A DNA stretch of 58,634 nucleotides, taken from positions 1 to 58,634 of the IMG/VR virus record IMGVR_UViG_3300045912_000093, one strand, 5' to 3'. The notes beneath the pieces were generated by a model, which was not told the origin of the DNA, searched no databases, and saw only the letters and a program-made list of their open reading frames with translations. Within the stretch, counting starts at the first letter, position 1. Each line of letters starts with the position of its first letter. Made by a program: the position numbers and the translations under genes. The DNA is from a virus. This document shows positions 5,648-35,300 of the stretch, one piece after another.

Positions 5648-6352
5648 TCAGAAGTAATGGTCCAACACCCACGGATGGTTTTGGCGGACATCCTCATCCC
5701 ACGGCTTGCGAAGCCCGTGGAACGAAACAAGCCGAGCACCCTTTGGGAGCCGACCAAGATTACGGAAAGTCCTGAACGCGTGCACCCCGTCCTTGTCGGT
5801 CCACGTCGCTTCGTTCGGACCGAGGATGTAGTTCAACCACGCTTGGTCAGACCCAGCAAAGCCGGCCTCTCTGGCAGCGAGGGGAGACTTCACGGGGTCG
5901 AACTCCGTCCACACCTGCGGTCGGGCATCATAATTCATCATCCACATCGTACCGTTGTAGACCGTGTTCTTGAACGGCCACGCCCAGATGACGAAGTCCT
6001 CCTCACGGTCGAAAAGCGGCGTCAAGTCACCGGTGACGACTACGTCGAGGTCAATGCTCACGAATCTCTTTGCAATCGTCGCCGCGACTGCTGGATCAAA
6101 AATGCGTAGACGACGATAGCAGGAAGGCTGAAGAGGACCGTGAAGAGACCTAAGATCAGCATGGTCGCCCCAAATAGGCACAGTGCGCACGCCCGGAAGA
6201 AAGCCTCCTTGGCGGTCCGTAATGCAGACGAAATCGAACGGCTTCGCATAGTGCCGGGCCACCATCCTGAACAGCGTGTTGACGTGCGTCTGGTCGAACT
6301 GCGAGCGGTAGCGCGTCAGTGGCGTCCAGAGCCAGGATACTACGGTAATCAC
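5648..6352 (-). CDS. glycosyltransferase, GT-A-like (copy 1)
   Basis: This 234-residue protein resembles small nucleotide-sugar glycosyltransferases. FVSIDLDVVVTGD (about residues 96-108) holds a DxD-type metal and sugar-nucleotide site. HGPLQPSCYRRLRIFDP and GFAGSDQAWLNYIL are family-like motifs. It is a clear paralogue of the gene at 8034-8762: both begin ITVV/ITSIVVW, share SCYRRL, a DLDVVVTG/DVDVIVTG core, FDPxKSP and GSDQxWL, and end PWVLDHYF / PWIKDYW. The GTG start at 6352 overlaps the upstream 59-residue gene's stop by GTGA. It probably transfers a sugar to a surface glycan or a virion part; the substrate is unknown. Confidence 0.8.
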   Translation of the reverse strand: MITVVSWLWTPLTRYRSQFDQTHVNTLFRMVARHYAKPFDFVCITDRQGGFLPGVRTVPIWGDHADLRSLHGPLQPSCYRRLRIFDPAVAATIAKRFVSIDLDVVVTGDLTPLFDREEDFVIWAWPFKNTVYNGTMWMMNYDARPQVWTEFDPVKSPLAAREAGFAGSDQAWLNYILGPNEATWTDKDGVHAFRTFRNLGRLPKGARLVSFHGLRKPWDEDVRQNHPWVLDHYF

Positions 6353-6528
6353 GTCGCTCTCCTCAACACGTGTCGCACGATCTCAGCAACAGTCTTGCGC
6401 TCGTACTTCACAAGCACCTGCAGCGCCCCGCGCAAGTACGACTTTGCCCGAGCATCACCCTGCACCGCCGCCCGGCACTTGGCCTTGAGCACGTCGCCGT
6501 CAGGAAGACTGGCAAACGGGTCCTTCAT
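6349..6528 (-). CDS. small unknown protein, 59 aa
   Basis: This short gene begins with ATG at 6528, overlapping the stop of the upstream GT-D-like gene (ATGA). It ends with TGA at 6349-6351, overlapping the GTG of the downstream glycosyltransferase. The translation starts MKDPFASLPDGDVLKAKCRA and ends EIVRHVLRRAT. It is basic and mostly helical, with no motif I recognise. Double-sided translational overlaps and GC-rich third positions support it as real. It may be a partner of the flanking enzymes. Confidence 0.7.
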   Translation of the reverse strand: MKDPFASLPDGDVLKAKCRAAVQGDARAKSYLRGALQVLVKYERKTVAEIVRHVLRRAT

Positions 6529-7292
6529 ATCCGCAATTTCCCGTCAAAGTACAGAACGTCGTAGTGCTTGCTGAGAAAATCACGCATCTCCTCCGCCGTG
6601 ACGTCCTTCGGACGCCGCAGGACAACCCTAACCGCCGGACCATTGTCCATGGAAGCTAGCTTGAGCAGGAACCCGCCGGCAGAACCAAGATCAACAGCAT
6701 GAACACCATCGGCCGCCAGACGCGCCGCTATGCACGTCGCAGCGGGACCACAGGACAACACGACGAGATTGGCACCCTGCACTTGCCTAACGAGCTTGTC
6801 AGCAACCTTGTAGGACTGATGCGACGGACAAACGACGTGGGTCACAGAAGCCGCAGTCATACTGATCACAGCGAGCAGGGAGTTGCCTTTTTCACACACG
6901 ACGTGCACATCTTTACCATCCCACAGCTGCTGTACAAGGACCAAATACTCCTTGCACAGGATCCACGGCGAGCTGTCGGGCCGGCTCACGAATGCCGACC
7001 CATAAACCCGGCCCATGTCTACGTACTCCGCGAACGACGTCATGTGCCGCACCCACCCGTCCAGCTTTGGTCCGTCCTTGTGCATGGTCGGGATAGCTGG
7101 CAGAAGATTGGGCGGCGGGTGTTTCAGGATGTGCCGCAGCTCGGCTGCAAGCTCCTCGTTGGCCGGCTCACGCACCTGCGAGCTACCGCGCATGAGCTTG
7201 AGTTCACCATCGCCGTAGCGAGACAGCGACATACCACCCACCACCCTCTTCATGGTCTCGAACTCGTCGAGAACCTTTGGCCATGTCCTCAC
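6525..7292 (-). CDS. GT-D fold glycosyltransferase (DUF1792-like)
   Basis: This 255-residue protein has the hallmark SRYGDGELKL near residues 24-33. The [RF]YGDGE signature is known from GT-D fold glycosyltransferases (the former DUF1792), where Asp and Glu bind the metal and sugar nucleotide. The C-terminal half has VHVVCEKGNSLLAVIS and NLVVLSCGPAATCIAARLA, then GVHAVDLGSAGGF, which agree with that family. GTG 7292 was chosen: it makes a GTGA overlap with the upstream stop and has GGAGAGGG 8-9 bases before it, whereas an earlier GTG at 7310 has no ribosome site. The context is a run of sugar-modifying genes. Confidence 0.8.
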   Translation of the reverse strand: MRTWPKVLDEFETMKRVVGGMSLSRYGDGELKLMRGSSQVREPANEELAAELRHILKHPPPNLLPAIPTMHKDGPKLDGWVRHMTSFAEYVDMGRVYGSAFVSRPDSSPWILCKEYLVLVQQLWDGKDVHVVCEKGNSLLAVISMTAASVTHVVCPSHQSYKVADKLVRQVQGANLVVLSCGPAATCIAARLAADGVHAVDLGSAGGFLLKLASMDNGPAVRVVLRRPKDVTAEEMRDFLSKHYDVLYFDGKLRI

Positions 7293-8041
7293 AGCGGCAC
7301 CCTCTCCCACGTGAAATTCAACGGTATCGCCTTCGGCAGCTTTTCTCGGTTTTTCCGTCGCCGAATCTCACTGTACCGACTCGTGTCCCGACTGAGCACG
7401 GTCTCAGACGCGTCAGGCACGGAGTGAGTAGTATGCACATGCAACGGCATGGAGGCGGGCAGAAGCCGCGGCTCAACGATGGCCGTCAGGTCCCGAAGGA
7501 ATGGCGTCCCGCCACCCAGCGACCCGGAGTAGTCCTCGTCGTAGCCACCAGCCCGCCAGTACAGCTCTCTGGTGATGAGGTATGAGTCCACGTGCGGGTG
7601 AATCTCCACGAACGTCGCAGCCGGGTCCGCAGCGTCCTTCTTGCGCGTGAAATCAGCCGCCCCAACCCGCCACCGGCAGAACCGGTACCACCGCTCCGGG
7701 TCAAGCTCAATGTTGATGGCAGCAGCCATGGTCTCGGGCGGCACCGTGTGGTCGACATCGACGTGCAAAAGCCACGGCGTCTTGGCTACGTAGGCCCCAA
7801 GGTTACGCGCCCCACCCCGGTTCCACGGAATGTCCTCCTTGATGCGGTACAGCTCCACCGGCAGGGCGCGGACCATGCACCGCAGGGCCTCCTCTGCCGT
7901 CATGTCAGGGCTGCCGTCGTCAACCACGATGATGTGAAGCCGCTTGAGCACCGCCGGGTCGTACTGCTCCCACACGTCGACATGCTTCCTGAGCATCCAG
8001 AAGTTCCGGTAGTACGGGATGATGAGGGAGATGTCATTCAC
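7289..8041 (-). CDS. family 2 glycosyltransferase
   Basis: This 250-residue protein starts at GTG 8041 (VNDISLIIPYYRNFW), with AAGGA 7 bases upstream. Longer in-frame readings upstream run antisense-like through the neighbouring gene and were rejected. It shows the GT2 layout: an N-terminal nucleotide-binding strand (SLIIPYYRN), HIIVVDDGSPD (about 37-47), WNRGGARNLG (about 72) and a DxD-type LLHVDVDH (about 91). A galactosyltransferase-like C-terminal segment follows: YWRAGGYDEDYSG, in which GGYDE/D is the usual acceptor-side motif. It overlaps the upstream glycosyltransferase by 8 bp. It is predicted to extend or decorate a glycan. Confidence 0.85.
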   Translation of the reverse strand: MNDISLIIPYYRNFWMLRKHVDVWEQYDPAVLKRLHIIVVDDGSPDMTAEEALRCMVRALPVELYRIKEDIPWNRGGARNLGAYVAKTPWLLHVDVDHTVPPETMAAAINIELDPERWYRFCRWRVGAADFTRKKDAADPAATFVEIHPHVDSYLITRELYWRAGGYDEDYSGSLGGGTPFLRDLTAIVEPRLLPASMPLHVHTTHSVPDASETVLSRDTSRYSEIRRRKNREKLPKAIPLNFTWERVPL

Positions 8042-8762
8042 GCCAGTAGTCCTTGATCCATGGGTACCGTTTCTGTGCCTGCCGGCACCACGGCTTGAGT
8101 GCCCCCGGGGTACTAACCACAGTAGTCCCCGGCGCTGGACCGTCAGGCGACAACCACTTGAGGTACGCCAGCCCGTCGGCCGCAGTGAACCCCGCCGTGG
8201 GTGGATACAACCGGTAAGACAACCACCCTTGGTCCGACCCGAAGCACCGTGCCTTCCGCGCCTCTGCCGGCGACTTCTCCGGGTCAAACTCGTCCCAGAT
8301 GTGGGTCATTGTACCCGGTTTGTGGAAGTACAGCCCGCCAGCCACCTTCCGCCAGACGAACCGCCGGTCCACCCACCCGACGAAGTTCTCGGCACGGGTG
8401 AGCAGATGGTCAATGTTGCCAGTGACGATGACGTCGACGTCGATGGCAAGGATGCGCGGTCCGAGCACATTGGCAGCCTCGGCAGAGAAGTTCCACAACC
8501 GACGGTAGCAGGAGGGGAACAGCTCCCCGTGAGGGCTGCGGGCATGACTGACATTTGTCGGGTCCATGACCACGCGTATTTCGGGCCGCAGGCCCGTGGG
8601 GTCGTCGGTTACGCAGACCAGCTCCCACGGCAAAGTAATGTGCCGGGCCAGCATCGCATAGAGGATGTTGTAGTAGTCCGGCAGGAATGAGGTACCGCGC
8701 TCGTGTTTTGGGTCGGTCCACTTCCAGACGACTATGCTGGTAATCTGCCCTGACTCGTGCAC
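8034..8762 (-). CDS. glycosyltransferase, GT-A-like (copy 2)
   Basis: This is a paralogue of the gene at 5648-6352 (shared SCYRRL, ILAIDVDVIVTGN, FDPEKSP, CFGSDQGWLSY, and a PWIKDYW end). The DVDV motif at about residue 126 is the probable DxD site. The start is uncertain. GTG 8762 gives 242 residues but has no close ribosome site. The homologous region begins at an ATT codon at 8744, preceded by AGGG, so a rare AUU start is possible. Either way the start lies inside the end of the FkbM-like gene, so translation is probably coupled. Confidence 0.75.
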   Translation of the reverse strand: MHESGQITSIVVWKWTDPKHERGTSFLPDYYNILYAMLARHITLPWELVCVTDDPTGLRPEIRVVMDPTNVSHARSPHGELFPSCYRRLWNFSAEAANVLGPRILAIDVDVIVTGNIDHLLTRAENFVGWVDRRFVWRKVAGGLYFHKPGTMTHIWDEFDPEKSPAEARKARCFGSDQGWLSYRLYPPTAGFTAADGLAYLKWLSPDGPAPGTTVVSTPGALKPWCRQAQKRYPWIKDYWRE

Positions 8763-9373
8763 AGCTGGAGCCAGTGCAAGATCCTCTCCCGATGAGTCGC
8801 GCCAACCATCGCGGTACGACTTGTGAGCACGCGTGGGGGCGGGTACGGCGCCAACCGACGAAGAACCTCCTCCTGCCGATGTCGCAGCTCCCGAATCTTC
8901 CGCACGTCGAAGTCCACCATCACGTAGGTGACTTTTTCGAATTCGCCGCTGTCTAATAGGTCGTCGAGGATGTCGCATTCCGCACCTTCGCAGTTCAGTT
9001 TCAGGAACACGGTGGCAGGAGAGACGAGATTCTCACGAAACCAAGTTGAAGCCTTGACGAAATTGCACAACACTGGCTCGTAACCACGGTCAGTCCAATT
9101 GGTCTTTTTCCACAGGCTAGCACCCTTGCTACCTGCGTCAATAAGCTCTGCCTGCGTGTCCCGATCCCACAGCCCGAAACGGTGAACGACTGTCGTGCGG
9201 GTATCAGCAATCTCCTGCAAGTGTGCCCAACAGAACGGCGCCGGCTCGAAACAGTGAATCTCGTCAAACCCCCACTCTTGGGCAACGGCGAGTGACTGCC
9301 CGATGTTGGCACCGACATCAAGGAACACTTGCGGAAGGTGCAAGTATTCAGTATGCTCCGCTCCGTTGGTCAT
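8732..9373 (-). CDS. FkbM-like SAM-dependent methyltransferase
   Basis: This 213-residue protein has the SAM-binding loop QVFLDVGANIGQSLA (about residues 15-29), an acidic strand end HCFEPAPF, and TVFLKLNCEGAECDILDDLL. The last is the characteristic FkbM element (KxDxEGxExxxL). FkbM-type enzymes O-methylate sugars and polyketides. Here the context of four glycosyltransferases suggests methylation of a sugar, which caps or masks a glycan. ATG 9373 has a good AGAGGAAG site 5-6 bases upstream. It is the first gene of the glycan cassette in transcription order. Confidence 0.85.
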   Translation of the reverse strand: MTNGAEHTEYLHLPQVFLDVGANIGQSLAVAQEWGFDEIHCFEPAPFCWAHLQEIADTRTTVVHRFGLWDRDTQAELIDAGSKGASLWKKTNWTDRGYEPVLCNFVKASTWFRENLVSPATVFLKLNCEGAECDILDDLLDSGEFEKVTYVMVDFDVRKIRELRHRQEEVLRRLAPYPPPRVLTSRTAMVGATHRERILHWLQLCTSQGRLPA

Positions 9374-10453: not shown

Positions 10454-10996
10454 ATGACTAAGCAGACCAACACGATCACGAATCCTGCCGAACTGTCGCG
10501 CATCGCGAAAACGTTCGCGCGAGCCTACACGCTCAACGTGTCGGCGGCCGACATCCTGACGGAGTCGGCGAGCATGTTCGCGGCGCGTCTGAAGCGCGAG
10601 GAACGTGCCAGCACGAAGGAAGAAATCAACTTCATGGTCGCCGAAATCGTCGCACTCTGCGGCTTGCAGAAGCTACCGTCGCGGGCGGTGCGCGAGTCGG
10701 AAATCCGCAGCGTGTTCCGGAACGCGGCGGCTTTCACGGCCGTGATGCAGAAGATCGGTAACACGCGCATCGGCTACGCGCTGGCGATCCAGCTGGCGCG
10801 GAAGTGCGATAGCCTGCCGGTCGCCGACGTCGTGGCATGGTACAAGTCCGGTAAGCCGATCGCAGGAACCGCGACGCCGAAGGCGAAGCGCGCACGCGCC
10901 GTGAAGACGTTGACGCACCTGTGCGACGAAAAGTCGTTGCCGCGCGACTTCCGCGACGCGCTGGCGCGGCTCATGGCGAAGTACTCGCTGGCCTGA
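10454..10996 (+). CDS. unknown protein, first gene of plus arm, 180 aa
   Basis: ATG 10454 has GGAG 8 bases upstream; a longer frame to 10388 would run through the palindrome and has no ribosome site. The product is basic and helical (start MTKQTNTITNPAELSRIAKT) with no catalytic motif. The middle has EINFMVAEIVALCGLQKLPSR; the C-terminal part is Lys/Arg-rich (TPKAKRARAVKTLTH). Codons favour ACG, GCG, TCG and CGC more than neighbours do, which may mean separate acquisition. The gene is bracketed by palindromes 1 and 2 and followed by its own terminator, so it looks like a self-contained unit, possibly an early host-takeover protein. Confidence 0.75.
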   Translation: MTKQTNTITNPAELSRIAKTFARAYTLNVSAADILTESASMFAARLKREERASTKEEINFMVAEIVALCGLQKLPSRAVRESEIRSVFRNAAAFTAVMQKIGNTRIGYALAIQLARKCDSLPVADVVAWYKSGKPIAGTATPKAKRARAVKTLTHLCDEKSLPRDFRDALARLMAKYSLA

Positions 10997-11394: not shown

Positions 11395-11589
11395 GTGTGT
11401 CTGTTCTGCGGAGCGCCGTTTATGCGCCCATTTTTGCTCGTTCATGTGTCGGGCCGGCTGGCTGCCGGGCCGTGAGGGTGGAGGGCAGGCGCGCGACCCC
11501 CTCGGGGGGCCGTTGTCATCAGCGCATATGGCGGGCCGGAGGGCTGCCGGGTTTATAGCGTTTGCTGCTGCGGGCAGGGCGGCAGTGAG

Positions 11590-11941
11590 CTATAAATAAA
11601 CCAAGGCAGAGTGCGGACTATAAATATATATAGTATTTATAGTATTTATAGTAGAGGTTAGAAATAGAACCTACGTAAGGACTTTGCGTTTCGTGGGCTT
11701 ATATCAGTGCGGGGTGTGTGTAGTACATTGGGGTCTTCTATTTCTAAAGCGCGCTATAAATACTTTAATTGCTTTTCCCTTTAGAAACAATGACTTCAAA
11801 GCGTGGTTCCCGGCCCACGTTTCAGGGTTTATAGTCGCGCGCTGCTTTTAACCCCCACAGCCCCACAAACTCGCTCCCTGCCACTTAACAACCCGATTAT
11901 TTATAGTCATCGAAACCGCCCTACTATAATTACTATAAATA
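11590..11941. repeat. iterated 9-mer CTATAAATA in both orientations
   Basis: Exact copies of CTATAAATA start at 11590, 11618, 11754 and 11933. Reverse-complement copies (TATTTATAG) start at 11634, 11643 and 11898. Degenerate copies are at 11828 (TTTATAG) and 11924 (CTATAATTA). Five of the seven exact copies extend to ACTATAAATA. Clustered iterons in an AT-rich island are typical of initiator-binding origins, but multiple regulator or phage-promoter sites are also possible. Confidence 0.75.
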
Positions 11942-11978
11942 CCCAGCCTTTCTCAACAGGTGCTTTCAGCATCACTTG

Positions 11979-13678: not shown

Positions 13679-13983
13679 GCAGTAGCTATCAACCTCTTTC
13701 CGGACTCGTGACGGAGTCGGACGGTACGCAGGCCATGTATTTGTTGGGCACTGCCGTCCTGACGGTGTATCCGTCCGGGACTGTCCGCATCGACACTGAT
13801 GACTGGCGTGGGCATGTAGTTAGTACCCGCATCAACTACGCCGCTGCCAAATTACGGTTGAACCTGCGGATCTTCTTTTCCAAGAACGGTGATCTGCTGC
13901 TTGTCTACAAAAACAGAGAGATGAACCTCCGCAAGGCCAGCGTCGTGGTACTCCACGATGGTGCCGTGCTGGAGGTAGCGTGA
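13675..13983 (+). CDS. unknown protein, 102 aa
   Basis: ATG 13675 is coupled to the gene before by ATGA, with GAGGAG upstream. The product is beta-rich (MYLLGTAVLTVYPSGTVRID, KASVVVLHDGAVLEVA) with a basic centre (YAAAKLRLNLRIFFSKNG). No family is recognised. It is the last gene before palindrome 5 and the AAA+ gene. Confidence 0.65.
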   Translation: MSSSYQPLSGLVTESDGTQAMYLLGTAVLTVYPSGTVRIDTDDWRGHVVSTRINYAAAKLRLNLRIFFSKNGDLLLVYKNREMNLRKASVVVLHDGAVLEVA

Positions 13984-13993
13984 CGTGCCTACC

Positions 13994-14008
13994 TTACAAA
14001 CCATGTAA
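13994..14008. promoter_or_regulatory. 15-bp palindrome, copy 5
   Basis: TTACAAACCATGTAA, with one mismatch (A for T) in the right arm. It lies 19 bases before the ATG of the MoxR-like gene, in its leader. Confidence 0.7.
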
Positions 14009-14027
14009 CACAACAACGGAGACGACG

Positions 14028-15092
14028 ATGAACATCAAGAATGCGAAGACCATGATCAAGACCCTCTACAAGCGGCAGATCGAGACCGGTGTGCGGTACT
14101 CGGTGATGCTGCAGTCCGGCCCCGGGCTGGGCAAGTCGGAGAGTGTGGCGCAGGCGGTGGCTGAGCTGTCGCAGGAGCTGGGGCAGCCGTTCGGGTTGAA
14201 GACCTTCCTGCTGTCCACGGTTGAGTCGCCGGACCTGCGTGGGTTCGGTATCCCGGCCAAAGACACCGACGGCACGCCTATCATGACGTACACGCGTGCG
14301 CCGTGGGGGCTGCGTGCTGGTGACCCGCAGCACGGGATACTGTTCCTCGACGAGTTCAGGCAGGCGAGCCACGACGTTCAGAAACCGGCTGCCGAGCTGC
14401 TGCTCAACGGGCGTGTGGGCGAGACCGTGCTGCCCATCACCTACATGGTAGTCGCGGCGAGCAACCGGGACACCGACCGCTCAGGCGTGCAGCGGGAGAT
14501 GGCGTTCATTACCAATCGTCTGCTGACGGTTGACGTGCACGCTGACCTCGACGCGTGGGTGGAGTGGGCCGAGAAGTCGCGGGTGCACTGGATGGCAGTG
14601 GCGTTCGCCAAGGCCAACCCGAGCGACGTGTTTGCTGACCGGGTGCCCGACAAGCCGGGTCCGTTCTGCACGCCGCGCACGCTGGTCAAGGTGGCCAACC
14701 TGATCGACGCTGGGATGCCCCAGAGCATGTTCAGTGAGGCTGCTGCTGGACTCATCGGTGAGGGCACGGCGACAAAACTGGTGGCGTTCATGCGGGTCAT
14801 CGACGAGCTGCCCACGTTCGAGGAGATCGTCAAGGACCCAGAGAACTGCCGCCTGCCGCCAGTTTCTCGGCCCGACGCCCAGTACGCTGCCATGCAGATG
14901 GTGGCGCACCGGGTGACCCCGGCCACCTCTCGGGCGGTGTTCACCTACCTGCTCCGCCTGCCGCGTGAGTTCCAGTTCGCCGGCCTGCGGGCGGCTCTGC
15001 GTGTGGCGCCACAGGTGTTGCACAACAAGGAGTTCGCCGACTGGATGCGGTCGAACAGCCAGCTGCTGGCTGCTGTTGCCGCTGCTTCGTAA
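14028..15092 (+). CDS. MoxR-like AAA+ ATPase
   Basis: This 354-residue protein is an AAA+ ATPase of the MoxR type. These act as chaperones with VWA-domain partners to insert metals or remodel complexes. Walker A GPGLGKS is at residues 31-37, Walker B HGILFLDEFRQAS near 104-116, and sensor-1 VVAASNRDTD near 141. VQREMAFITNRLLTVDVHAD and later CTPRTLVKVANLID fit the C-terminal lid. ATG 14028 follows an ACGGAGACG site; a longer frame would run through palindrome 5. The VWA protein that such ATPases work with is encoded two genes downstream. Confidence 0.88.
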   Translation: MNIKNAKTMIKTLYKRQIETGVRYSVMLQSGPGLGKSESVAQAVAELSQELGQPFGLKTFLLSTVESPDLRGFGIPAKDTDGTPIMTYTRAPWGLRAGDPQHGILFLDEFRQASHDVQKPAAELLLNGRVGETVLPITYMVVAASNRDTDRSGVQREMAFITNRLLTVDVHADLDAWVEWAEKSRVHWMAVAFAKANPSDVFADRVPDKPGPFCTPRTLVKVANLIDAGMPQSMFSEAAAGLIGEGTATKLVAFMRVIDELPTFEEIVKDPENCRLPPVSRPDAQYAAMQMVAHRVTPATSRAVFTYLLRLPREFQFAGLRAALRVAPQVLHNKEFADWMRSNSQLLAAVAAAS

Positions 15093-15121
15093 TCTACTAA
15101 CATCTGTAAGGAGACATGACC

Positions 15122-16425
<1,304 letters not shown>

Positions 16426-16426
<1 letters not shown>

Positions 16427-16488
16427 TGACACGTGTAGACCTCACCAACAGTACCAATTACCTGACTATCGAAGTAACGAAGGAGTAG
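16426..16488 (+). CDS. possible 20-aa leader peptide
   Basis: ATG 16426 overlaps the stop of the 434-residue gene (TGATG). The frame ends in TAG at 16486-16488, two bases before the ATG of the VWA gene, so its last codons contain that gene's AAGGAG site. The product begins MTRVDLTNSTNYLTIEV. It may serve only to couple translation across the 65-base gap. Confidence 0.35.
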
Positions 16489-16490
16489 AC

Positions 16491-17711
16491 ATGAGTAGCC
16501 AGAGGTTTACAGAAATGAAGTCGGCCGTGCTGATGCACGTGCCGTTCTTCGCTGCGCTCTTGCTTGACCGGATGACGATGAAGGTTGGCAAGTTCCCCAA
16601 CATCCCGACGGCCGGCACCGATGGCAAGACGGTGTGGTTCGACGAGGATTTTCTCAACAGCCTGACACTGAAGGAGGCGATGTTCGTGTGCTGCCATGAG
16701 GTAGCGCACGCCATGTGGATGCACATGGACCGGGCCAAGAAATACGAGAAGCTCGGCACTGTGAACGGCAGGCCTTTCAATGCCATGAAGTGGAACACTG
16801 CCGCTGACTACGTCATCAACTATCTGCTGGTGGAGGCTGGCATTGGCAAAATGCCTGCAGGCGGACTGTACGACGGCCGGTACACGTCGAGCATGTCGGT
16901 AGAGGAGGTGTACGCACAGCTGCCGGACCCGCCACCGTCTGGAGGTGGTGGCGGTAGTACTGGTGACGGCGGTGACAATGGCGACGGTGACGGCAGTGAC
17001 GGCGGTGGCGGCCGTGACGCCATGCCGGGGTTCGACGTGCACGTACCTGCTCAGTCCGAGGTTTCCCAAGAAGAGTGGAAGCGCGCTGTCGCTAGCGCCG
17101 TGCAGGCTGCCAAGACCGCCGGCAAGCTGCCCGGCGCACTGGAGCGGTTCGCTGAGGCATTACTTAACCCGCAGGTCACGTGGCAGGAGGTGCTGCGCCG
17201 ACGACTGACGGCGCTGGTGGGGCGCGACGCGCGCACGTGGGCAAAGCTGCATCGGCGCCGGCTGGTGGCACAGGGGGTAGTTATGCCAGGTTACGCCGGT
17301 CATAGGGCCGGCACGGTGGTGGTTGTTGTGGACACGTCCGGGTCTATCAGCAGTCAGGAGCTTACGGTGTTCCTGACAGAGGTACAGGCAATTCTCGACG
17401 ACGTGCAGCCGCAGGAGACCGTCCTCGTTGCGTGCGACACCAAAGTGCAAGATGTGCACACGCTGTATCCAGGCGATAGCCTCACAGCCCTGCAGCTCAA
17501 GCTGGGTGGAGGCGGCGGCACGTCCTTCGTCCCGCCATTCGAGTGGGTGGCGGAGCAGAGTGTGTACCCCGACACGCTGGTGTACCTAACCGACATGCAC
17601 GGTACGTTCCCTGCTGACCCGGGCTACCCGGTCATCTGGTGTGCGACGAGTGACCGGGAAGGACCGTTCGGCGAGACGATTCGTCTTGAGGTTGGAGGTG
17701 GGCTGCTGTGA
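16491..17711 (+). CDS. VWA-like protein with metallopeptidase motif (DUF2201-like)
   Basis: This 406-residue protein fits the two-part family with an N-terminal putative metallopeptidase domain and a C-terminal VWA-like domain. The zinc motif HEVAHAMWMH begins at residue 69. A Gly/Asp/Ser linker (about 145-175) resembles a flexible hinge. The VWA part has VVVVDTSGSISS near 277-288 (MIDAS DxSxS), and later VLVACDTKVQDVH and TDMHGTFP supply the other metal-coordinating positions. ATG 16491 has AAGGAG 8 bases upstream. It is probably the partner of the MoxR-like ATPase. The target of this machine in the infected cell is unknown. Confidence 0.85.
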   Translation: MSSQRFTEMKSAVLMHVPFFAALLLDRMTMKVGKFPNIPTAGTDGKTVWFDEDFLNSLTLKEAMFVCCHEVAHAMWMHMDRAKKYEKLGTVNGRPFNAMKWNTAADYVINYLLVEAGIGKMPAGGLYDGRYTSSMSVEEVYAQLPDPPPSGGGGGSTGDGGDNGDGDGSDGGGGRDAMPGFDVHVPAQSEVSQEEWKRAVASAVQAAKTAGKLPGALERFAEALLNPQVTWQEVLRRRLTALVGRDARTWAKLHRRRLVAQGVVMPGYAGHRAGTVVVVVDTSGSISSQELTVFLTEVQAILDDVQPQETVLVACDTKVQDVHTLYPGDSLTALQLKLGGGGGTSFVPPFEWVAEQSVYPDTLVYLTDMHGTFPADPGYPVIWCATSDREGPFGETIRLEVGGGLL

Positions 17712-19328: not shown

Positions 19329-19412
19329 ATGGATTTTCTGATCGCTTTGCTTGTCTGCGCGTGGCCGGTCTGGCTACCCGTTGTCATCAGTTGGTGGGAG
19401 GATCCGAGGTGA
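19329..19412 (+). CDS. 27-aa single-span membrane microprotein
   Basis: The frame from ATG 19329 encodes MDFLIALLVCAWPVWLPVV and ends ISWWEDPR, a single hydrophobic helix. Its TGA overlaps the GTG of the DNA polymerase gene (GTGA), and its last codons contain the GGGAGG site for that gene. No clear ribosome site is seen for itself. It may be a functional small membrane protein or a leader that couples translation to the polymerase. Confidence 0.45.
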   Translation: MDFLIALLVCAWPVWLPVVISWWEDPR

Positions 19413-21262
19413 GGGTTTTCACCATCGACTTCGAGACGTACTACGATCAAGAGTACAGTCTCCGCAAGATGACTACCGAGGAGTATGTGTGTGATCCCCG
19501 TTTCGAGATCATTCTGGTCTCGGTGGCAGTGGACGACGATCCGCCGCTAACCTTCTCCGCCGACACGCTTGAAGAGTACACAGGCTTCCTGCGCGGTCTT
19601 GGCATCGAGGACGGCGCGGTGCTGGCTCACAACACGATGTTCGACGGGCTGGTCCTGACGGCCCGTCTCGGCATCTACCCAAAGCTGTGGCTGGATACGA
19701 GATCCATGGCATCGGCCGTGGACAAGCCGGAGCACCGCTCGGTCTCGCTCGAGAACTGCCTGAACCGCCGGCCGCACCTCGGCATAAGCAAGGGCAGCTA
19801 CGTCCATAACATGCTTGGGGTGCGTCGTCGTGACATGAGTCCTGAGCAGTTCGACGCGTACGCCCGTTACTGCACGATCGACACCATCGGCTGCCGGGCA
19901 CTGTTCCGCGACCTGCTGCCCTCTATCCCGAAAGAAGAGCTGCGGGTCATCGACTTGACCCTGCGGATGTACCTTGAGCCGCAGCTGGAACTAGACGAAG
20001 ACCTTCTGGCACGGATTGTGGCAGACGAGGAAGCGAAGAGCTCCATAGCGCTGGCGTCAATCGAGAAGATTCTCGGCCCCGAGGCCCAGAATATCGTCCG
20101 GTCCAACGACAAGTTCGCTGCCCTCTTGACGCGCATGGGCGTAGAAGTCCCGATGAAGTATTCGCTTGCCACGGGGAAGCTGATCCCTGCGCTGGCCAAG
20201 ACCGACGAAGGGTGGGCGCAGCTGTGTGACATGTATGAGGATCACCCCACCATCGGGCCGCTGCTCAAGGTACGCCTCAGCCAGAAGTCCACCAACGTCC
20301 TGACACGCTCAAAGAGACTACTGGCAATCGCGCAGCGATTCAAGCACTTCCGCGTCCCGCTGGTGTACTACGCGGCCCATACCGGCCGGTACGGTGGCAC
20401 GGAGAAGATCAACCCCCAGAACCTGAAACGCGTGGACAAGAAGGCTGGCCCCCTCCAGATCCGGTACGCGGTCACGCCGCCGGAGGACCACCTTATTATC
20501 ACGGCTGATCTAGCGCAAATCGAGGCGCGCATCAACGCCCACCTTTCCGGCGAGGACGCGCTCGTGCACGCGTTCGCTACTGGTGAGGACGTCTACAGCG
20601 CATTCGCTTCCAAGCTGTTCGGCAGGACCATCACGAAGGCTGATCCCAACGAGAGATTCATCGGGAAGTGCTGCATTCTGGGTCTCGGGTACGGCATGGG
20701 GGCTGAACGACTTCGGTTGTTCCTGCTCCAGAGTGGCGTCCGCATCGACACGGACACGGCGGAGCGGTACGTCGCTACGTATCGGAACACATACCGAAAC
20801 ATTGTGAAGATGTGGACCATTGCTGAGCGAATGCTCGGCTCGATTCAGCGTGGTGATATGCTGAACTACAAGTACCTCAGCATCACGCCGCACGGCATTG
20901 GTCTGCCCAATGGCATGGCAGTGAAGTACCCCAACCTCACTTACGGCGACACCACGGATAGCTACGTGGCGTTTTACGACGGGACTGTCCGGCACCTTTG
21001 GGGCGGCATGATTGTAGAGAACGTAGTGCAGGCGCTGGCACGGACGGTGATCATCCAGCAGATGCTCGCTATCTACAACGAGCTCGGGCTGCGCCCGGCT
21101 ATGCAGGTGCACGACGAGCTTGTGTACGTGGTGCCTCACAAGAAGGCCCACATCCTAGCCGCCCGCATCAACACCATCATGTCCACGCCACCTGAGTGGG
21201 CACCCACCTTGCCTATCGCTGCCGAAGTAGGCATCGGGGCGAACTACGGAGACGCGAAGTGA
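19409..21262 (+). CDS. DNA polymerase, family A, with 3'-5' exonuclease
   Basis: This replicative polymerase has 617 residues. GTG 19409 was chosen: GGGAGG is 8 bases upstream and the protein then begins directly with the exonuclease motif VRVFTIDFETYYD (Asp7, Glu9). The second exo motif HNTMFDG (Asp79) and the YCTIDT motif complete the proofreading site. Polymerase motif A is DLAQIEARINAH (about 366), motif B follows RFIGKCCILGLGYG (about 415), and motif C is MQVHDELVYVVP (about 566). No 5'-3' nuclease domain is present, as in many phage Pol A enzymes. It is the first large gene behind the promoter at 19269. Confidence 0.96.
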   Translation: MRVFTIDFETYYDQEYSLRKMTTEEYVCDPRFEIILVSVAVDDDPPLTFSADTLEEYTGFLRGLGIEDGAVLAHNTMFDGLVLTARLGIYPKLWLDTRSMASAVDKPEHRSVSLENCLNRRPHLGISKGSYVHNMLGVRRRDMSPEQFDAYARYCTIDTIGCRALFRDLLPSIPKEELRVIDLTLRMYLEPQLELDEDLLARIVADEEAKSSIALASIEKILGPEAQNIVRSNDKFAALLTRMGVEVPMKYSLATGKLIPALAKTDEGWAQLCDMYEDHPTIGPLLKVRLSQKSTNVLTRSKRLLAIAQRFKHFRVPLVYYAAHTGRYGGTEKINPQNLKRVDKKAGPLQIRYAVTPPEDHLIITADLAQIEARINAHLSGEDALVHAFATGEDVYSAFASKLFGRTITKADPNERFIGKCCILGLGYGMGAERLRLFLLQSGVRIDTDTAERYVATYRNTYRNIVKMWTIAERMLGSIQRGDMLNYKYLSITPHGIGLPNGMAVKYPNLTYGDTTDSYVAFYDGTVRHLWGGMIVENVVQALARTVIIQQMLAIYNELGLRPAMQVHDELVYVVPHKKAHILAARINTIMSTPPEWAPTLPIAAEVGIGANYGDAK

Positions 21263-26253: not shown

Positions 26254-29112
26254 ATGAACCTAGTCGAGTTCCTACGGGCAGTCACGCCGTCGGGGGCGAA
26301 GCTCGTCGCCGCCCGAAAGGTACAGCGGGTAGACCGAGACGGTCGCCCGTACTCTACCTTTGCTCACACAGTTGTAGACACTCACGAAGACCTCGCCGCT
26401 GCGCTGCAGAAAGCCGCAGCCAGCGGGGAGGACGCCTATTTCGCCCTCGCTGGGTTCCGGCAGGGGTTCCACAGAAACGCCAACGGCAAGGCGGTCGTCC
26501 GCGTCAGGGACAACGTCAGCGCCCTGCAGGCGTTCTGGATGGACATCGACTACAAGGATGGCTACGGCTCGCCCTCTGCCGCCCTGAAGGCCGTGCGCGC
26601 GTTCTGTGACGCGTCTGGCGTGCCTCCGCCGACCATCGTCGTGGCCAGCGGCAACGGGCTGCACGTGTACTGGCCGCTATCCGAGCCCGTGCCGGTCGCC
26701 GAGTGGCAACCGCTGGCGACCCGGCTCAAGAATCTTGCGGCGCAGCACGGCCTCAAGGCGGACGGGGTCTGCACTGCTGACAGCTGTCGGGTGCTTCGAC
26801 CACCGTTCACCACGAACTTCAAGGATCCCACAGCCCCGAAGCCCGTCAGGCTTCTGAGTGGGAATGGGGTAACGCGAACTGCCGAGCAGGTAGTTCCGTC
26901 TGCTACTACCCCATTTGGGCCTGCGGTACTCGGTGACCTCCCCTCGTATGTGCGGCCGGGGGCTGCCGACGCAGACGAGTACACCGGGGGCACCGGTACC
27001 GCAGTGCCCAAGGGCGTCATGGCCAACATCATCGCGCAATGCGCGGTAATGCAGGAGATCGTCGAGACCAAGGGTGCGCACCAGAGCGAGCCCGAGTGGT
27101 CTGCCACCCTGCAGTTGCTGAAGCACTGTGAGGACGGCGAGAACTGGGTGCACAAGGTATCCGAGGGGCACCCTGACTACGAGCACGAGGCGACGGAGCG
27201 GAAGTGGCAGGGCAAGCTGGAGAACACGTCTGGCCCCACCTTGTGCGAAACCTTCCAGCAGTGGCACTCAGCGAAGTGCATCACGTGCCCCTTCTACGGG
27301 AAGATCAAGTCGCCGGTTCAGCTTGAAAGCGTGACGCCCAACAGCCCGGCGGCCAAAGCTGGCGTAGTGCTGACTACGTGGCGCCCCGGAGCCGACGGCC
27401 GGTCTATGGAGATGAAGGTCTACGACAAGGAGACCAAAAAGTACTCGTGGCAGAAGGCATTGTCCTACATGATCGACGACGTCAAGGTAGTCTGCGTCGC
27501 CGGCAAGCTCAGCCACGGGCTCGAGTTCCGCGCCCACTTGGGTAACAATTCCAGCAAGCAGGTGTCGCTACCATCCTCAACCCTCGGCAACACGATGAAG
27601 CTGCGCGAGGAGATGTTCAGGGTAGGGGTTCCAATCGACGAACAGGAAACGAAGGCATTCGTTAAACTCATGAGTACGTGGCTGAAGAAAATGCAGCAGG
27701 CCCGGCAGGTGGAGACGCTCTCAGAGCAGCTCGGCTGGCTCACGGACGAAAACAACCAGATATCTGGCTTCGGCTGTGCCAACATCACGCTTAACCGTGA
27801 TGGCACGGAGAAGACGGGAGTCAGACCGACCAAGGACTTCGAGGTTCTGACCCGGCACTACACGCCGATTGGCGACCCGAAGGACTGGCGTGCCGTTGCT
27901 GACATGCTTTTGAAAGACGGTTCCCCTACCGCCACGATCATGTTAGCAAGCGCATTCGCGACGCCATTGCTCAGGTTTGCCGGGCTGCAGGGGTCGATTC
28001 TTTCGTTCGTGTCGGCGCAGTCCGGTGCCGGCAAGACGACGGCGATGCGGGCGGCTCAGGCCGTCTGGGGGTCGCCTACCAAGGCAGTGAACTCGGTCGA
28101 CGATACGGTGCTGTCGGTCGCCAAGAAGGTCGGCTTCATTCAGAACCTGCCGGCCTACTGGGATGAGGTCCGCGGCGAGAAGACGATCGAGAGCTTCAAG
28201 AAGCTGGCCTTCCAGATCACACAGGGCAAAGAGAAGTCCCGACTGGACTCGTCATCGTCGCTGCGTGAGGTCTACGACTGGCAGACGATGGTGGTGGTCG
28301 CCAGCAACGACTCAATCTTCGACGCCATGGCCACGGTCGGCTCCGGCTCAGACGCCGGCGTGCTCCGGACGTTCGAGGTTACGGCCGACGCCTTGGAGTG
28401 CTCGGTCGAGGCTAGTCAGCAGGTGCAGCGGGCGGTAGCTACGCTCAACCAGAGCTACGGCTGGGCTGGGGTTGAGTATGCTCGCTATCTCGTCACGCAC
28501 CTCGAGCAGGTCGAGCAGCTGGTCGAGGCGATGCAGGTCAAGGTATCCAAAGACGTCGGCGCCCTGCCAGTTGAGCGGTTCTGGGTGGGTACAATGGCAG
28601 TGCTGCTGGCGGGGGCGCAGCTGGCTAACGAGGCTGGTGTGTGCAAGTTCGACGTCCCGAGGCTGTACAAACAGCTGCGTGCAGTGCTGACGAGCATGCG
28701 GCAGCGACGTGTTTCCACAGCCGCGAGCGTCAGCCCGGAGGAGATCATCGCGTCGTTCTTGGCGTTCTATCAATCAGAGGTGTTGGTCACCGACAAGTTT
28801 CGGGGCCGCGGAAAGAGCGGGGACCCGCGCATAATTCGACCGCCTAACAACCCATCGGACAAGATCACCGTGCACCGTTCAGTTGAAGACGGCCACGTCA
28901 GGTTTCCGGTCAAGCTGTTCAACGACTATTCTGAGCGGCAGTTCCGCACGTCGGCCCGACTGATTATCGCCGACATGAGACGCAGGAATCTGCATGCCAA
29001 GACAATCCGCGGAGTGCTTGGCGCTGGTACATCGTACGCGCTTCCGCAGATGGGGCTCATCGAGGTAGACTACACGTCAGACGTCGATGACACCGATCAG
29101 TCAACGGAGTAG
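26254..29112 (+). CDS. primase-helicase (AEP primase plus DUF927-like ATPase)
   Basis: The 952-residue protein combines two enzymes. The N-terminal 210 residues look like a RepB/AEP-type primase: AFWMDIDYKDG near 95 supplies the catalytic acids, and VVASGNGLHVYWPLSEP near 130 the conserved Gly-Asn/His motif. A Cys pair (CITCPFYGK, about 350) may bind zinc. From about 400 onward is a DUF927-like hexameric ATPase with Walker A SAQSGAGKTTAMRAA near 587 and Walker B LPAYWDEVRG near 632. Such fusions load and drive phage forks. ATG 26254 is used although its ribosome site is unusual. Confidence 0.85.
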   Translation: MNLVEFLRAVTPSGAKLVAARKVQRVDRDGRPYSTFAHTVVDTHEDLAAALQKAAASGEDAYFALAGFRQGFHRNANGKAVVRVRDNVSALQAFWMDIDYKDGYGSPSAALKAVRAFCDASGVPPPTIVVASGNGLHVYWPLSEPVPVAEWQPLATRLKNLAAQHGLKADGVCTADSCRVLRPPFTTNFKDPTAPKPVRLLSGNGVTRTAEQVVPSATTPFGPAVLGDLPSYVRPGAADADEYTGGTGTAVPKGVMANIIAQCAVMQEIVETKGAHQSEPEWSATLQLLKHCEDGENWVHKVSEGHPDYEHEATERKWQGKLENTSGPTLCETFQQWHSAKCITCPFYGKIKSPVQLESVTPNSPAAKAGVVLTTWRPGADGRSMEMKVYDKETKKYSWQKALSYMIDDVKVVCVAGKLSHGLEFRAHLGNNSSKQVSLPSSTLGNTMKLREEMFRVGVPIDEQETKAFVKLMSTWLKKMQQARQVETLSEQLGWLTDENNQISGFGCANITLNRDGTEKTGVRPTKDFEVLTRHYTPIGDPKDWRAVADMLLKDGSPTATIMLASAFATPLLRFAGLQGSILSFVSAQSGAGKTTAMRAAQAVWGSPTKAVNSVDDTVLSVAKKVGFIQNLPAYWDEVRGEKTIESFKKLAFQITQGKEKSRLDSSSSLREVYDWQTMVVVASNDSIFDAMATVGSGSDAGVLRTFEVTADALECSVEASQQVQRAVATLNQSYGWAGVEYARYLVTHLEQVEQLVEAMQVKVSKDVGALPVERFWVGTMAVLLAGAQLANEAGVCKFDVPRLYKQLRAVLTSMRQRRVSTAASVSPEEIIASFLAFYQSEVLVTDKFRGRGKSGDPRIIRPPNNPSDKITVHRSVEDGHVRFPVKLFNDYSERQFRTSARLIIADMRRRNLHAKTIRGVLGAGTSYALPQMGLIEVDYTSDVDDTDQSTE

Positions 29113-30759: not shown

Positions 30760-32375
30760 GCCTTGCCATCGATGATGTTGATGAGCGTCCGCTTGCCGTT
30801 GGCGTAGATGATGGCGTGCGTGTTAAGCCAGCTGCTTGGTCCCTGCGTGTAGGACAGCTTCAGATATGTGCTCGTGCCTACTCTGTAGTGCCCGCCTTCG
30901 ATGGCAGGGCTGTGACTGTGACCGGAGATCACGCGGACGCCGATTTTGGACAGGTTGTTCACCGAGCCCCTTGCGCCATCCGGGCCGCGGTGCCCGTGGA
31001 AGCCGCACTCGATACCCCCAATGAGGCAGGACTCGTCTGGCTTCAGGCAACGGATGTCGTCACGTTCGTCCAGCTGCGACTCTAACCACAAGGCAAACGG
31101 GTCTGGGTAGCTGGCCCCACCCTCAGCTACCTCTGCCCGCTCAGCAAGGGCAGCGGCCGTCTTCAGGTAGAAGACGGCGTTGGTGGGGTCTTTCCGCCAG
31201 TCCGAGTCCACCAGCCACCGGCGGAAGAAGTCGTTATGGTTGGAGGCGACGACGTAGGCCCGGCGGCCCGCCGACTTTTCGCGGATGAAATGCACTGCCT
31301 CCGCCACTTCTCGAGCGAAGTCGGCGCTTCCGTATCTGTGTCTGGCGACTGCTGCAAACGGATCATGACGCTCGTGTGGGTTGACTGCAAAGCCGTCCAA
31401 CACATCGTGCCAGACGAGAGCTTGGGGGTTCAATCTGTCGACGATGCCGCCGGGGCCGAACGTGGCCTTGACGACCTTTGGGTCAACAAACCTGACATGT
31501 GTGTCGCCCATCACCAGTCCCAAAGCCGGAGGGGCAGGGCGGACCGTGCCGTCCGGCAGATACTCGGTGTCTAGGTCGATGAACGAGCCATCGTCCATGG
31601 CGTTGATCTGCCGGAGGTGGAAGCGTGAGCCATCCAGCTCGACGACGCAGGCTCCAAACACGTGGTGGAACTCACCCTTCTTGCCTGCCTTGCTGTCGGT
31701 GTAGTTCCGGACGGTCACCGCACCAGTCGTGGTCATGATCTTGGGTAGGGCGCCGTGCGGGGTTGCAATTGTCCGCAGAGCCATCTTCGAATGGCCGAGG
31801 ATACCTGACTCGCCGTGGGTAATGCCTTCGAACCCGGATAGCGGGTGCTGGGCAGTGGGGACGGTCTTGATGTCCCCGAGCAGGATAAGGTGCTTGCTCA
31901 GACGTTTCCGCTGGTTGTGCAGGTACGGCGTGATGGCTGGATCCCACACTTCAGCGTTCTGCTGTGACTGACTCCACCGGGAAGTCGGGTTCTTGTAGCG
32001 GGTCGGAATGACCACGAGGTCGGCATTCCAGACCGAGCAGTAGCCCTTCAGTGCTTCTAGGAACCCCGCATGAACTGGGGTAGCGTTCTGGGCCGAGGTC
32101 ACTACGAGCCGGCGGCTGGTCAGGTTTCGTTTGAACCGCGGCCGACCGACGCGCTCGTTTGTCCCGTTTTGCTTCGCCACGTACCCGTCTATGGGTGTAG
32201 TCGTGCTGTAGCAATACAAGTCTTCGCCACCGCTCCTTGTCCTGCACCCCCACCTTAATCGGCCAGTAGCGGTGCGGGCCATGCGGAACATTTTGCGCCC
32301 GCAACGGGGGCAGGTGGGGCGGTCGCTATCTGAAGAAGTCTGCTTCGCGCCCGAGGATCGCTGCTTGCCGGTCAT
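30750..32375 (-). CDS. metallophosphoesterase, T5 A1-like
   Basis: The 541-residue protein opens with a zinc ribbon (TCPRCGRKMFRM, Cys22/25, then Cys44 and Cys55). A calcineurin-like metallophosphoesterase follows: LVMGDTHVRF near 287, VASNHNDFFRRW near 374 in place of GNHD/E, and ISGHSHSPAIEGGHYRVGTS near 484. Phage T5 A1, a host-DNA degrading early protein, has this kind of domain, so a nuclease acting on host DNA is a fair guess. ATG 32375 lies inside the end of the giant gene and has no clear ribosome site, so a slightly later start is possible. Confidence 0.75.
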   Translation of the reverse strand: MTGKQRSSGAKQTSSDSDRPTCPRCGRKMFRMARTATGRLRWGCRTRSGGEDLYCYSTTTPIDGYVAKQNGTNERVGRPRFKRNLTSRRLVVTSAQNATPVHAGFLEALKGYCSVWNADLVVIPTRYKNPTSRWSQSQQNAEVWDPAITPYLHNQRKRLSKHLILLGDIKTVPTAQHPLSGFEGITHGESGILGHSKMALRTIATPHGALPKIMTTTGAVTVRNYTDSKAGKKGEFHHVFGACVVELDGSRFHLRQINAMDDGSFIDLDTEYLPDGTVRPAPPALGLVMGDTHVRFVDPKVVKATFGPGGIVDRLNPQALVWHDVLDGFAVNPHERHDPFAAVARHRYGSADFAREVAEAVHFIREKSAGRRAYVVASNHNDFFRRWLVDSDWRKDPTNAVFYLKTAAALAERAEVAEGGASYPDPFALWLESQLDERDDIRCLKPDESCLIGGIECGFHGHRGPDGARGSVNNLSKIGVRVISGHSHSPAIEGGHYRVGTSTYLKLSYTQGPSSWLNTHAIIYANGKRTLINIIDGKAWM

Positions 32376-35300
32376 TCAGGTTCGCTCCGTAGGTTTGCGT
32401 GCGCACCTCACGTTCACGCTTGTTCCGCATGGCTTGAATCAAGCCAGCGACGCTTATCGGGGCGTCTGGGTACGTCTTGTTGTGCTGAACAGCCTCGCTG
32501 ATGAGCTTACCCATTTCAGACGGGTCGGCTTTCAGGATACGCTCCACGATCTCCTGCTTATGCTCAGTGGCAAGGCGCGTTCGACGGGTGAGGTACTCCC
32601 GCTTGTCGTAGAAACGAGAAACCGACGTCGGAGTAAGGCCAAGGCTTTGAGTGAACAGCTCCAGCGGAGAAACGTCGTCCGCCGGGACGAGTACGTCACC
32701 CCGAGTAGACGTGATGCCTTCGGTAGCAAAGCGGCCAGCGCGCAAAAAGTCGCGGACGATCTTCGGCGTGACAAACTCCAAGCCACGGAAGAACCCGCGC
32801 ACGTCACCGTTGGCAGACGCTTCCATGACTTGCTGGAAGCCACGCCCCCACTGCACGCCGATACCGATCCACGGTCCACCGAAAGACGTAACCGCACTAC
32901 CAAGGAACGAGTCGGCGTTCTCCGGCCGCAGGTCGGCCATGAAAATGGACCCCATCGAAAGCCGCTTCGACATGTCGACGCCCAGAACTGCCGGTATACC
33001 CTTGGCAGCAGCTTCAGCCAACGCCGGCGAGCCAGTGATCGCTGCAAGGTTTTTCTGGAACCACCAGTCGAACGCCTGCCCGCTGACCGCCGACGCCGCA
33101 TCGTACGGCTCGTCATCGTCGCCAAACAACGCAAGCACCAGACCGGCAGCCCACTTGATTGGCTGGAACATGGTGCCCGTTACGCCGGCAGCGAGGGTGT
33201 GGGTGGCAAGCATGTTTAGGAAGACGCGCTTGGCCTCCTTGTCACCTTTCGTCCACTTGTACAGGTTCATGCCCATCATGGCATACATGTGCTGAGGCCA
33301 CTGCATGAACTGTGTCACAAGAGGGGCACCGGCACCGAGAGGCCCGTTCGTCTGGAACCACCGCGGCTTGTTGGCGCCACCGTAGTTGAACTGCGTCGTA
33401 GAGACAGCGGTCTTGGCGTACATCGTGGCCTGTCGGTCAGCTTCAACCTCACCGACAGCCTCTACCACCTCGTTGTACTTGAGATCGTAGGCAGCGATGG
33501 CCACCAGCACGCGGTTGTTCACCTCGGTCAAGTGAGCCATGATGCGAGAGGCGTCGAGTATACGCTGGGTGGGAGAGAGGTCCTGCCCCTCAGCAATGTC
33601 GCGCAGCTCTGCGATCCACGACAGGTCGATGACGTTGTTCCGCCGCAGCTCAGTCAGCATGGCGATGTACTTCTCCCCCCTGCCGTCCGGCAGGCTGGAG
33701 TCATTCCGGATCTGGTCGATGATCTGGTCGATGACCGAGAACGCCTGCTCAGCCGCCACCTTGCCTGTCAACTTGCGTGCAGCTGCGATACCGCCCTTTG
33801 AGTCAACTACTGCCTTGAGCAGCGGCGACTTGATGAGATTCTGTGCCATACCCAAGGCAGCGCCAGCGGACCGCCAGCCGTACCGGGCGGCCAACCACGG
33901 CAGCGTGATCAGCCATGGCTGGGTGGCGTTGGTCATCCAGTACGCAGGTGTGGTGAGAGAGATGAACTGCGCGAACTCCGTCCCACGCTTCACGATGTTC
34001 ACAATGTCTGGCAGCTCGGCCATCTGCTCGTCGCGCTGCCTCAGCTCGTTCACCACATCACCCCGTCGCACCGCCGAAATCTCGTCGGTACCACGGGTCC
34101 GCTTGGCGAACTCGTCCATGTCTCGCAGGTGCCGACCAAGCTGCCAGCCGTACTGCAGCTGTGAGGTGTAGTACGCAGATTGCTTAGCGTAGTTGGCGAA
34201 GTTCCGATGCTGGATGTCGTAGTCCACGCCCAGCCGGTTCTTGCGACGGATCTCATGCTTGCGGAAGCTGGAGTCCGCCAGCGACCGTAGGTAGAAGTTC
34301 TTGATTGCCGCCTGCGCCGCCTTGTTACCTTCCAGATTACCGAGAATGGAGGCAAGAGCCGAGTTCGACTGAATCGCCGCGTCCTGCGTGAACTGTGACC
34401 GGCGCTGCACGTCGGACACAGCGTCGGCGCCGTAAGTTTCAACCATCCGCTGGCGAATCTCCTCTGCCTCCGTCCGCGACTCAGCTGTACTGAATTCTTT
34501 CTCAGTGACCCGCACTTCGAATTTGTTGTCGACCTTGAACACACCGACATCCAGCGTTGGGTCATCGCCACGCTTTGTCGCGGCATACGCGAATGCCTCC
34601 TTGCTGTCGGTGAACGTCTTGCGCTCTACCTCGCGCGACGCATACACGACAAAGTCACCGTAGCGCATTAGGGGGAAGTAATCACCCTGCCGCATTTCCG
34701 GCAAGCGGGCAAGCTGGGCTATCGTCGCCTTCATATCAGGCGTAGCGATGTCACCGATCATCTCATTCAGCTTCTCCGGGGTAATCCCAGAGAGCTTCTT
34801 GAGCGTGAACGTATCTTCGAACGTTTCTAAGTCGAGCGGAGCGCCGGCGCCAGTGGCCAACACCGCTCGCAGAGCGTTCTGCAGAATCAGAGTAGATTCC
34901 TCGGCAAGCGCGTTGCGGTAGTACGCCTGCAGGTCATCGTACATCTGTCGATACTCTGACGGCATGGCGAGATACCGAGCGTTCAGCTCTGACCAGCGCT
35001 GCTTCGCCGTCGGTGTAGTCAGATGGCTGTTTCGAGGGCTAGTTACCGCCTCGCCGGGCGACACGCGGTACAGGCTAGCCTCAGTTGCTACACGTGACAG
35101 CTCGATAGCCGCTGCAGGGTCCTTCTGTTGCAGCGTAGTCCACCGCTGCATGATTTTCTCGGCACGCTCCATCAAGCGAGAGTTCTCAGCAGCCCGCTTG
35201 AAGTACGCATCCATGTAGGCAGTCAGCGGGTTACCCTGCGGACCTTGGAACCCGTCGGCGTACAGGTCCCGAATTTGCTCCATGGTCATTGCACCAAGAG

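Follow-up and report, generated by a model that had tools for sequence, protein, structure and literature searches.

The question raised by this locus is whether an AT-rich island, in which a short word is iterated in both orientations, is the replication origin of the phage that carries it and which protein would read the repeats. The window, by which we mean the whole stretch of DNA analysed (58,634 nucleotides), encodes terminase, major capsid, tail and internal virion proteins, a 3411-aa DarB-like protein, PolA, a SNF2-type helicase, an exonuclease and an AEP primase-helicase. The island is very probably the place where the phage starts to copy its DNA, and we put at roughly 0.8 the probability that it works like the origins of SaPIs and PICIs, with the primase-helicase binding both sets of iterons as the initiator.

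Iterated sites in an AT-rich noncoding island

The 9-mer CTATAAATA is present in seven exact copies in the 58,634 bases, all of them between 11590 and 11941; for the whole window, shuffles give an expectation of 0.01. When the sequence of the island itself was shuffled 2,000 times, CTATAAATA was expected 0.0175 times, with a largest count of 1, and the commonest 9-mer in any shuffle reached at most three copies; the AT-richness of the island therefore does not account for the cluster. These counts bear out the original prediction, which had reported seven exact copies in about 350 bases, in both orientations and with degenerate copies alongside, and a 10-mer common to five of them, here identified as ACTATAAATA. 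It had also placed an AT-rich stretch in a GC-rich genome; G+C is 60.1% overall, and the lowest-GC window, at 0.39 over 250 bp, sits in the island. No recognisable gene is found there, again as predicted, only small unsupported ORFs; in the close relative L006 one of them (11693-11851) is disrupted by the loss of 2 nt. The elements of the island are as follows.

11575-11950, no strand: AT-rich noncoding island, candidate replication origin; the lowest-GC and top inverted-repeat window of the genome, conserved in close relatives and syntenic in distant ones
11590(+), 11618(+), 11634(-), 11643(-), 11754(+), 11898(-), 11933(+): exact copies of CTATAAATA
11590-11652, no strand: left iteron set, comprising CTATAAATA at 11590(+) and 11618(+) and a 9-bp tandem of TATATATAG at 11625 with TATTTATAG at 11634 and 11643; 25% G+C
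11653-11753, no strand: central stretch separating the iteron sets, G-rich on the plus strand; 46% G+C
11754-11941, no strand: right iteron set, with sites at 11754(+), 11898(-), 11924 (CTATAATTA) and 11933(+), the last two forming a 9-bp tandem
11552-11558, plus strand: degenerate iteron TTTATAG, found again at 11828-11834; both largely retained in close relatives

The degenerate iterons TATATATAG and CTATAATTA complete head-to-tail runs with a period of 9, of three copies at 11625-11651 and of two at 11924-11941. The island as a whole shows the arrangement of an iteron origin, short repeated sites adjoining an AT-rich stretch, and both sets lie in the lowest-GC window.

The island is syntenic in related phages

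Neither the island nor the first 25 kb gave a match in near and distant DNA searches of a phage collection, and the deposited phages include no close relative of the contig; the nearest, with 26-31% primase identity, are Pseudomonas phage Rollin and four Rhizobium phages. A collection of genome contigs yielded no relative of the phage ATPase. In IMG/VR about twenty relatives were found, with 53-61% identity in the MoxR-type ATPase in most and 96-97% in one; this 96% relative (G001) is probably a closed genome, because it has a 127-nt terminal repeat.

A search of relatives for the 9-mer cluster had been proposed as a check of the origin. Comparison with relatives revealed syntenic islands in 18 contigs (the two closest relatives, L006 and L011, and 16 more distant ones), each with one noncoding island, the same early genes around it and short repeats of its own, often tandem 9-mers. 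L006 and L011 retain the island and their spacer sequence drifts. Several iteron copies in L011 read ATAATTA where the window has ATAAATA, which indicates that the copies change together. In the 16 distant contigs a single AT-rich noncoding island lies to the right of gene X and to the left of the early genes preceding the ATPase.

10454-10996, plus strand: gene X, 180 aa, all-helical; always an early gene of about 180 aa left of the island, and not the preferred initiator

The repeats of the distant islands include GTGGACAAA, GACGTAGAG, GGACATTCA, ATGGACGCG, GGACGGTT, GGACATGAT, GGATATGATGGTAATGA, GGTAATGAT and AACGTATTT, among others. Direct or inverted 8-mer pairs significantly exceed those of each island's own shuffles in all islands tested. 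Of ten near-complete genomes, eight have the island as their top-ranking window for inverted pairs, and eight as that for low GC. A repeat lag of exactly 9 occurs in 8 of 14 islands against 0.76 expected, a lag of 8 being as common, partly owing to TA runs. No island was found in contigs G023 and G025, but the ATPase region is missing from both, and in Pseudomonas phage Rollin, whose protein is 28% identical, no comparable island was seen in those gaps inspected. Rhizobium phage RHph_TM3_14A has at 19355-20125 (L059, 1356-2125) a 770-bp intergenic gap with G+C down to 25% and TCATAATTA-like repeats, which is possibly the same kind of origin and, if so, would permit an experimental test in a cultured phage. 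Its record labels the primase-helicase as a 'putative integrase'.

The AEP primase-helicase is a homologue of self-loading initiator helicases

The original prediction held that the initiator was not evident and might be one of the unknown proteins. Our results point instead to the AEP primase-helicase, which it had listed as a replication gene.

26254-29112, plus strand: AEP primase with DUF927 helicase, proposed initiator (Pfam DUF927, E 2.2e-26; profile matches; structural model)
28849-29073, plus strand: C-terminal winged-helix-like domain, proposed iteron reader, residues about 866-940; strand-strand-helix-helix-strand-strand in the model

A profile built from 12 relatives matches SCCmec Cch (5dgk, E 4e-18) and SaPIbov1 Rep (8tch, E 1.6e-16). 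The last 543 residues were modelled with AlphaFold2 (mean pLDDT 79), and the model aligns with Cch at a Z of 29.5 over 447 residues (rmsd 10.9, model residues 7-538) and with SaPIbov1 Rep at a Z of 26.2 over 412 residues (rmsd 11.2, model residues 9-531), the high rmsd values probably reflecting a differing arrangement of domains; the next-best chains are MCM proteins at a Z of 12.7. The primase-helicase is thus a homologue of Cch and SaPIbov1 Rep, and by homology and predicted fold it appears to be a DUF927 helicase of their self-loading type. Cch and SaPI Rep are described as self-loading initiator helicases, and the C-terminal domain of SaPI Rep recognises iterons (PMC7581432); in AEP-helicase fusions a C-terminal winged helix has been proposed to serve in origin recognition (PMC5862659). 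In the phages compared here the C-terminal domain is the least conserved folded part of the protein, at 33% identity versus 62% for the helicase core.

Iterons vary with the C-terminal domain of the helicase

In the 14 phages for which both iterons and protein are known, similarity of the iterons was scored by cosine on the short words contained in repeated 7-mers and compared with the identity of protein parts by Mantel tests. Identity of the C-terminal winged-helix domain correlates with iteron similarity at r 0.52 (p 0.0005, 14 phages), a figure obtained with island limits drawn by eye beforehand and one kind of similarity measure, and from which shared ancestry is removed only in part. For the other parts of the protein r is 0.24 for the AEP domain, 0.21 for the helicase core and 0.29 for the lid, and for the ATPase (13 phages) it is 0.19. 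With gene X and the other parts of the protein removed, the C-terminal domain retains an r of 0.40 (p 0.0006), and the tracking persists at each of four word sizes and when three close relatives are left out. The highest r along the protein falls at residues 826-950, and a smaller rise is seen at 451-575. The iteron of the window itself has no distant look-alike. From this statistical tracking we propose that the C-terminal domain binds the iterons; as the repeats change with the DNA-binding tail of the primase-helicase, this protein is the likely starter of replication.

Weighing other explanations of the repeats

The island is flanked in the early region by two genes that point the same way, and its repeats might form an operator or promoter array, either binding a phage regulator or serving as -10-like elements that switch the flanking early genes. 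The TATAAA and TATAAT of the window do resemble -10 boxes, and a separate family of palindromes nearby (seven sites) suggests that regulators act there. We nevertheless regard such an array as unlikely: one promoter-like site was found against 1.0 expected, an HTH_3 repressor was not found in the genome, and of the proteins tested it is the replication helicase domain that the repeats follow most closely. In most relatives, moreover, the repeats (GGACGTAGA, GGTAATGAT, AACGTATTT) are unlike -10 boxes, and transcription starts at the 9-mers lose weight as an alternative for that reason.

The island could also be an origin served by gene X, as in phages whose initiator gene borders the iterons. 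Gene X is present in every relative and always adjoins the island, is hardly conserved in sequence (14-22% identity to distant relatives) and shows a weak correlation with the iterons (r 0.30, p 0.01), which falls to 0.21 (p 0.06) once the parts of the primase-helicase are removed, compared with the residual 0.40 of the helicase C-terminal domain. It has no match to a PHROGs or Pfam family, and its predicted all-helical fold has no convincing match in the PDB (best E 1.9), on which ground it was dropped as a candidate; its chances of being the initiator are slim.

A partition or packaging site is very improbable; centromeres also carry iterated sites in both orientations, and there is one island per genome, but neither a ParA-type ATPase (PF13614) nor a tyrosine integrase (PF00589) was found in the contig, and the distance to the terminase genes, which are on the opposite strand, is 8-9 kb. 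Equally hard to credit is a structured noncoding RNA with the inverted repeats as stem arms, for although the arms remain complementary as the sequence changes and the fold z-score is -2.3, a stem needs neither direct tandem copies within its arms nor extra copies outside them, and no Rfam family matches at gathering cut-offs. None of these four explanations accounts for repeats that follow the helicase domain.

A candidate replication origin, as first predicted, is therefore the best-supported reading, given an island that is syntenic in 18 relatives, two iteron sets in an AT-rich stretch, and iterons that vary with a SaPI-Rep-like helicase domain. GC skew, which had been suggested as a check, has minima near the island in some genomes, yet it follows gene direction and so does not decide on the origin.

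Proposed initiation and comparison with known origins

For this candidate origin we infer a mechanism in which the C-terminal winged helix would attach hexamers of the primase-helicase to the iteron sets on the left (11590-11652) and on the right (11754-11941). The hexamers would open the AT-rich DNA, self-load as helicases and start forks at the island. The fused AEP domain would then prime, and the phage PolA (19166-21262) would extend the primers.

The closest parallel is the PICI origin, in which an AT-rich region always has two sets of iterons around it (PMC6092414). Like the SaPI/PICI origin with its Rep (SaPIbov1 Rep, 8tch), the window has a DUF927 helicase, which is homologous to Rep and in the model aligns with it in the C-terminal domain as well. 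Both have short iterons that form two sets and are accompanied by AT-rich DNA, and in both the iteron sequences are specific to the element. Both also have a primase, which is fused in this phage and sometimes fused in PICIs. The window differs in that the element is an autonomous, podovirus-like phage and not a satellite integrated at an attachment site, for it has terminase, capsid, tail and virion genes of its own and no tyrosine integrase was detected. The conserved GTTATCATCAGC box adjoining the island is a further difference. Against the origin reading, the island lies 14.3 kb from the proposed initiator gene, and is far from it in relatives too, whereas PICI origins lie directly 3' of rep. 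The helicase part has its best match, in structure and in sequence, in SCCmec Cch (5dgk; Z 29.5), which has no AEP domain and resides in a chromosomal cassette.

The alpha protein of phage P4, with its ori and crr, likewise unites primase and helicase functions with origin binding in a single polypeptide and uses short iterons in both orientations, but its helicase is of a different family. In lambda O and the iteron plasmids the iterons also adjoin AT-rich DNA; their initiators load DnaB, whereas the proposed initiator of the window is itself the helicase. What is new with respect to PICI origins is that the element is a phage in its own right and that, with a homologous initiator present, the candidate origin does not follow the initiator gene. 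In the literature searched, the coverage of which is incomplete, we found no description of such a phage origin. We offer more tentatively the idea that in this phage group the origin code diversifies rapidly in constant surroundings. Each phage would keep the island and respell the iterons in step with the helicase domain that reads them, and related phages, or satellites with a SaPI-type Rep, might thus be unable to use or block one another's origins. If this is true, the arrangement that has been reported as unique to the origins of phage-inducible islands may derive from free phages or be common to both.

Neighbouring elements and genes

Two further families of short sites were found in the early region.

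11512-11529, plus strand: left-flank box GTTGTCATCAGCGCATAT; in relatives GTTATCATCAGC followed by CGTAC
10426, 10998, 11336, 11979, 13994, 15444, 19197: sites of the palindrome TTACAARSYTTGTAA

The left-flank box (GTTRTCATCAG) is largely retained where the iterons are not. A second same-strand copy lies at 19380-19397, near the start of the PolA gene, and second copies occur in G011, G015 and G016 at a similar distance, about 8-10 kb rightward. The 15-bp palindrome occurs at seven sites against 0.11 expected, all within 9 kb of the early region, and most sites directly precede a ribosome-binding site or a terminator-like hairpin. The relatives each carry a variant of their own at comparable positions (TTACACCSGTGTAA, TTAACAGSCTGTTAA, TTGCTAGSCTAGCAA, TTCACACATGTGTGAA and others), and a dimeric regulator of changing specificity is therefore the likely reader of the palindromes.

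Hairpin promoters were also considered for these sites, alongside an N4-like virion RNA polymerase. The 3411-aa protein (32326-42561), the candidate for such a polymerase, instead matches a DarB-like antirestriction family over residues 2455-3396; its first two thirds have no PHROG match, and distant relatives align only from residues about 2000-2230 onward. Glycosyltransferase and methyltransferase genes adjoin the terminase on the minus strand (5648-9373). All relatives share the block at 13980-17711, which encodes the MoxR-type ATPase, found in N4-like phages too, a protein whose acidic-proline tract is repetitive, and a DUF2201 metallopeptidase/VWA protein.
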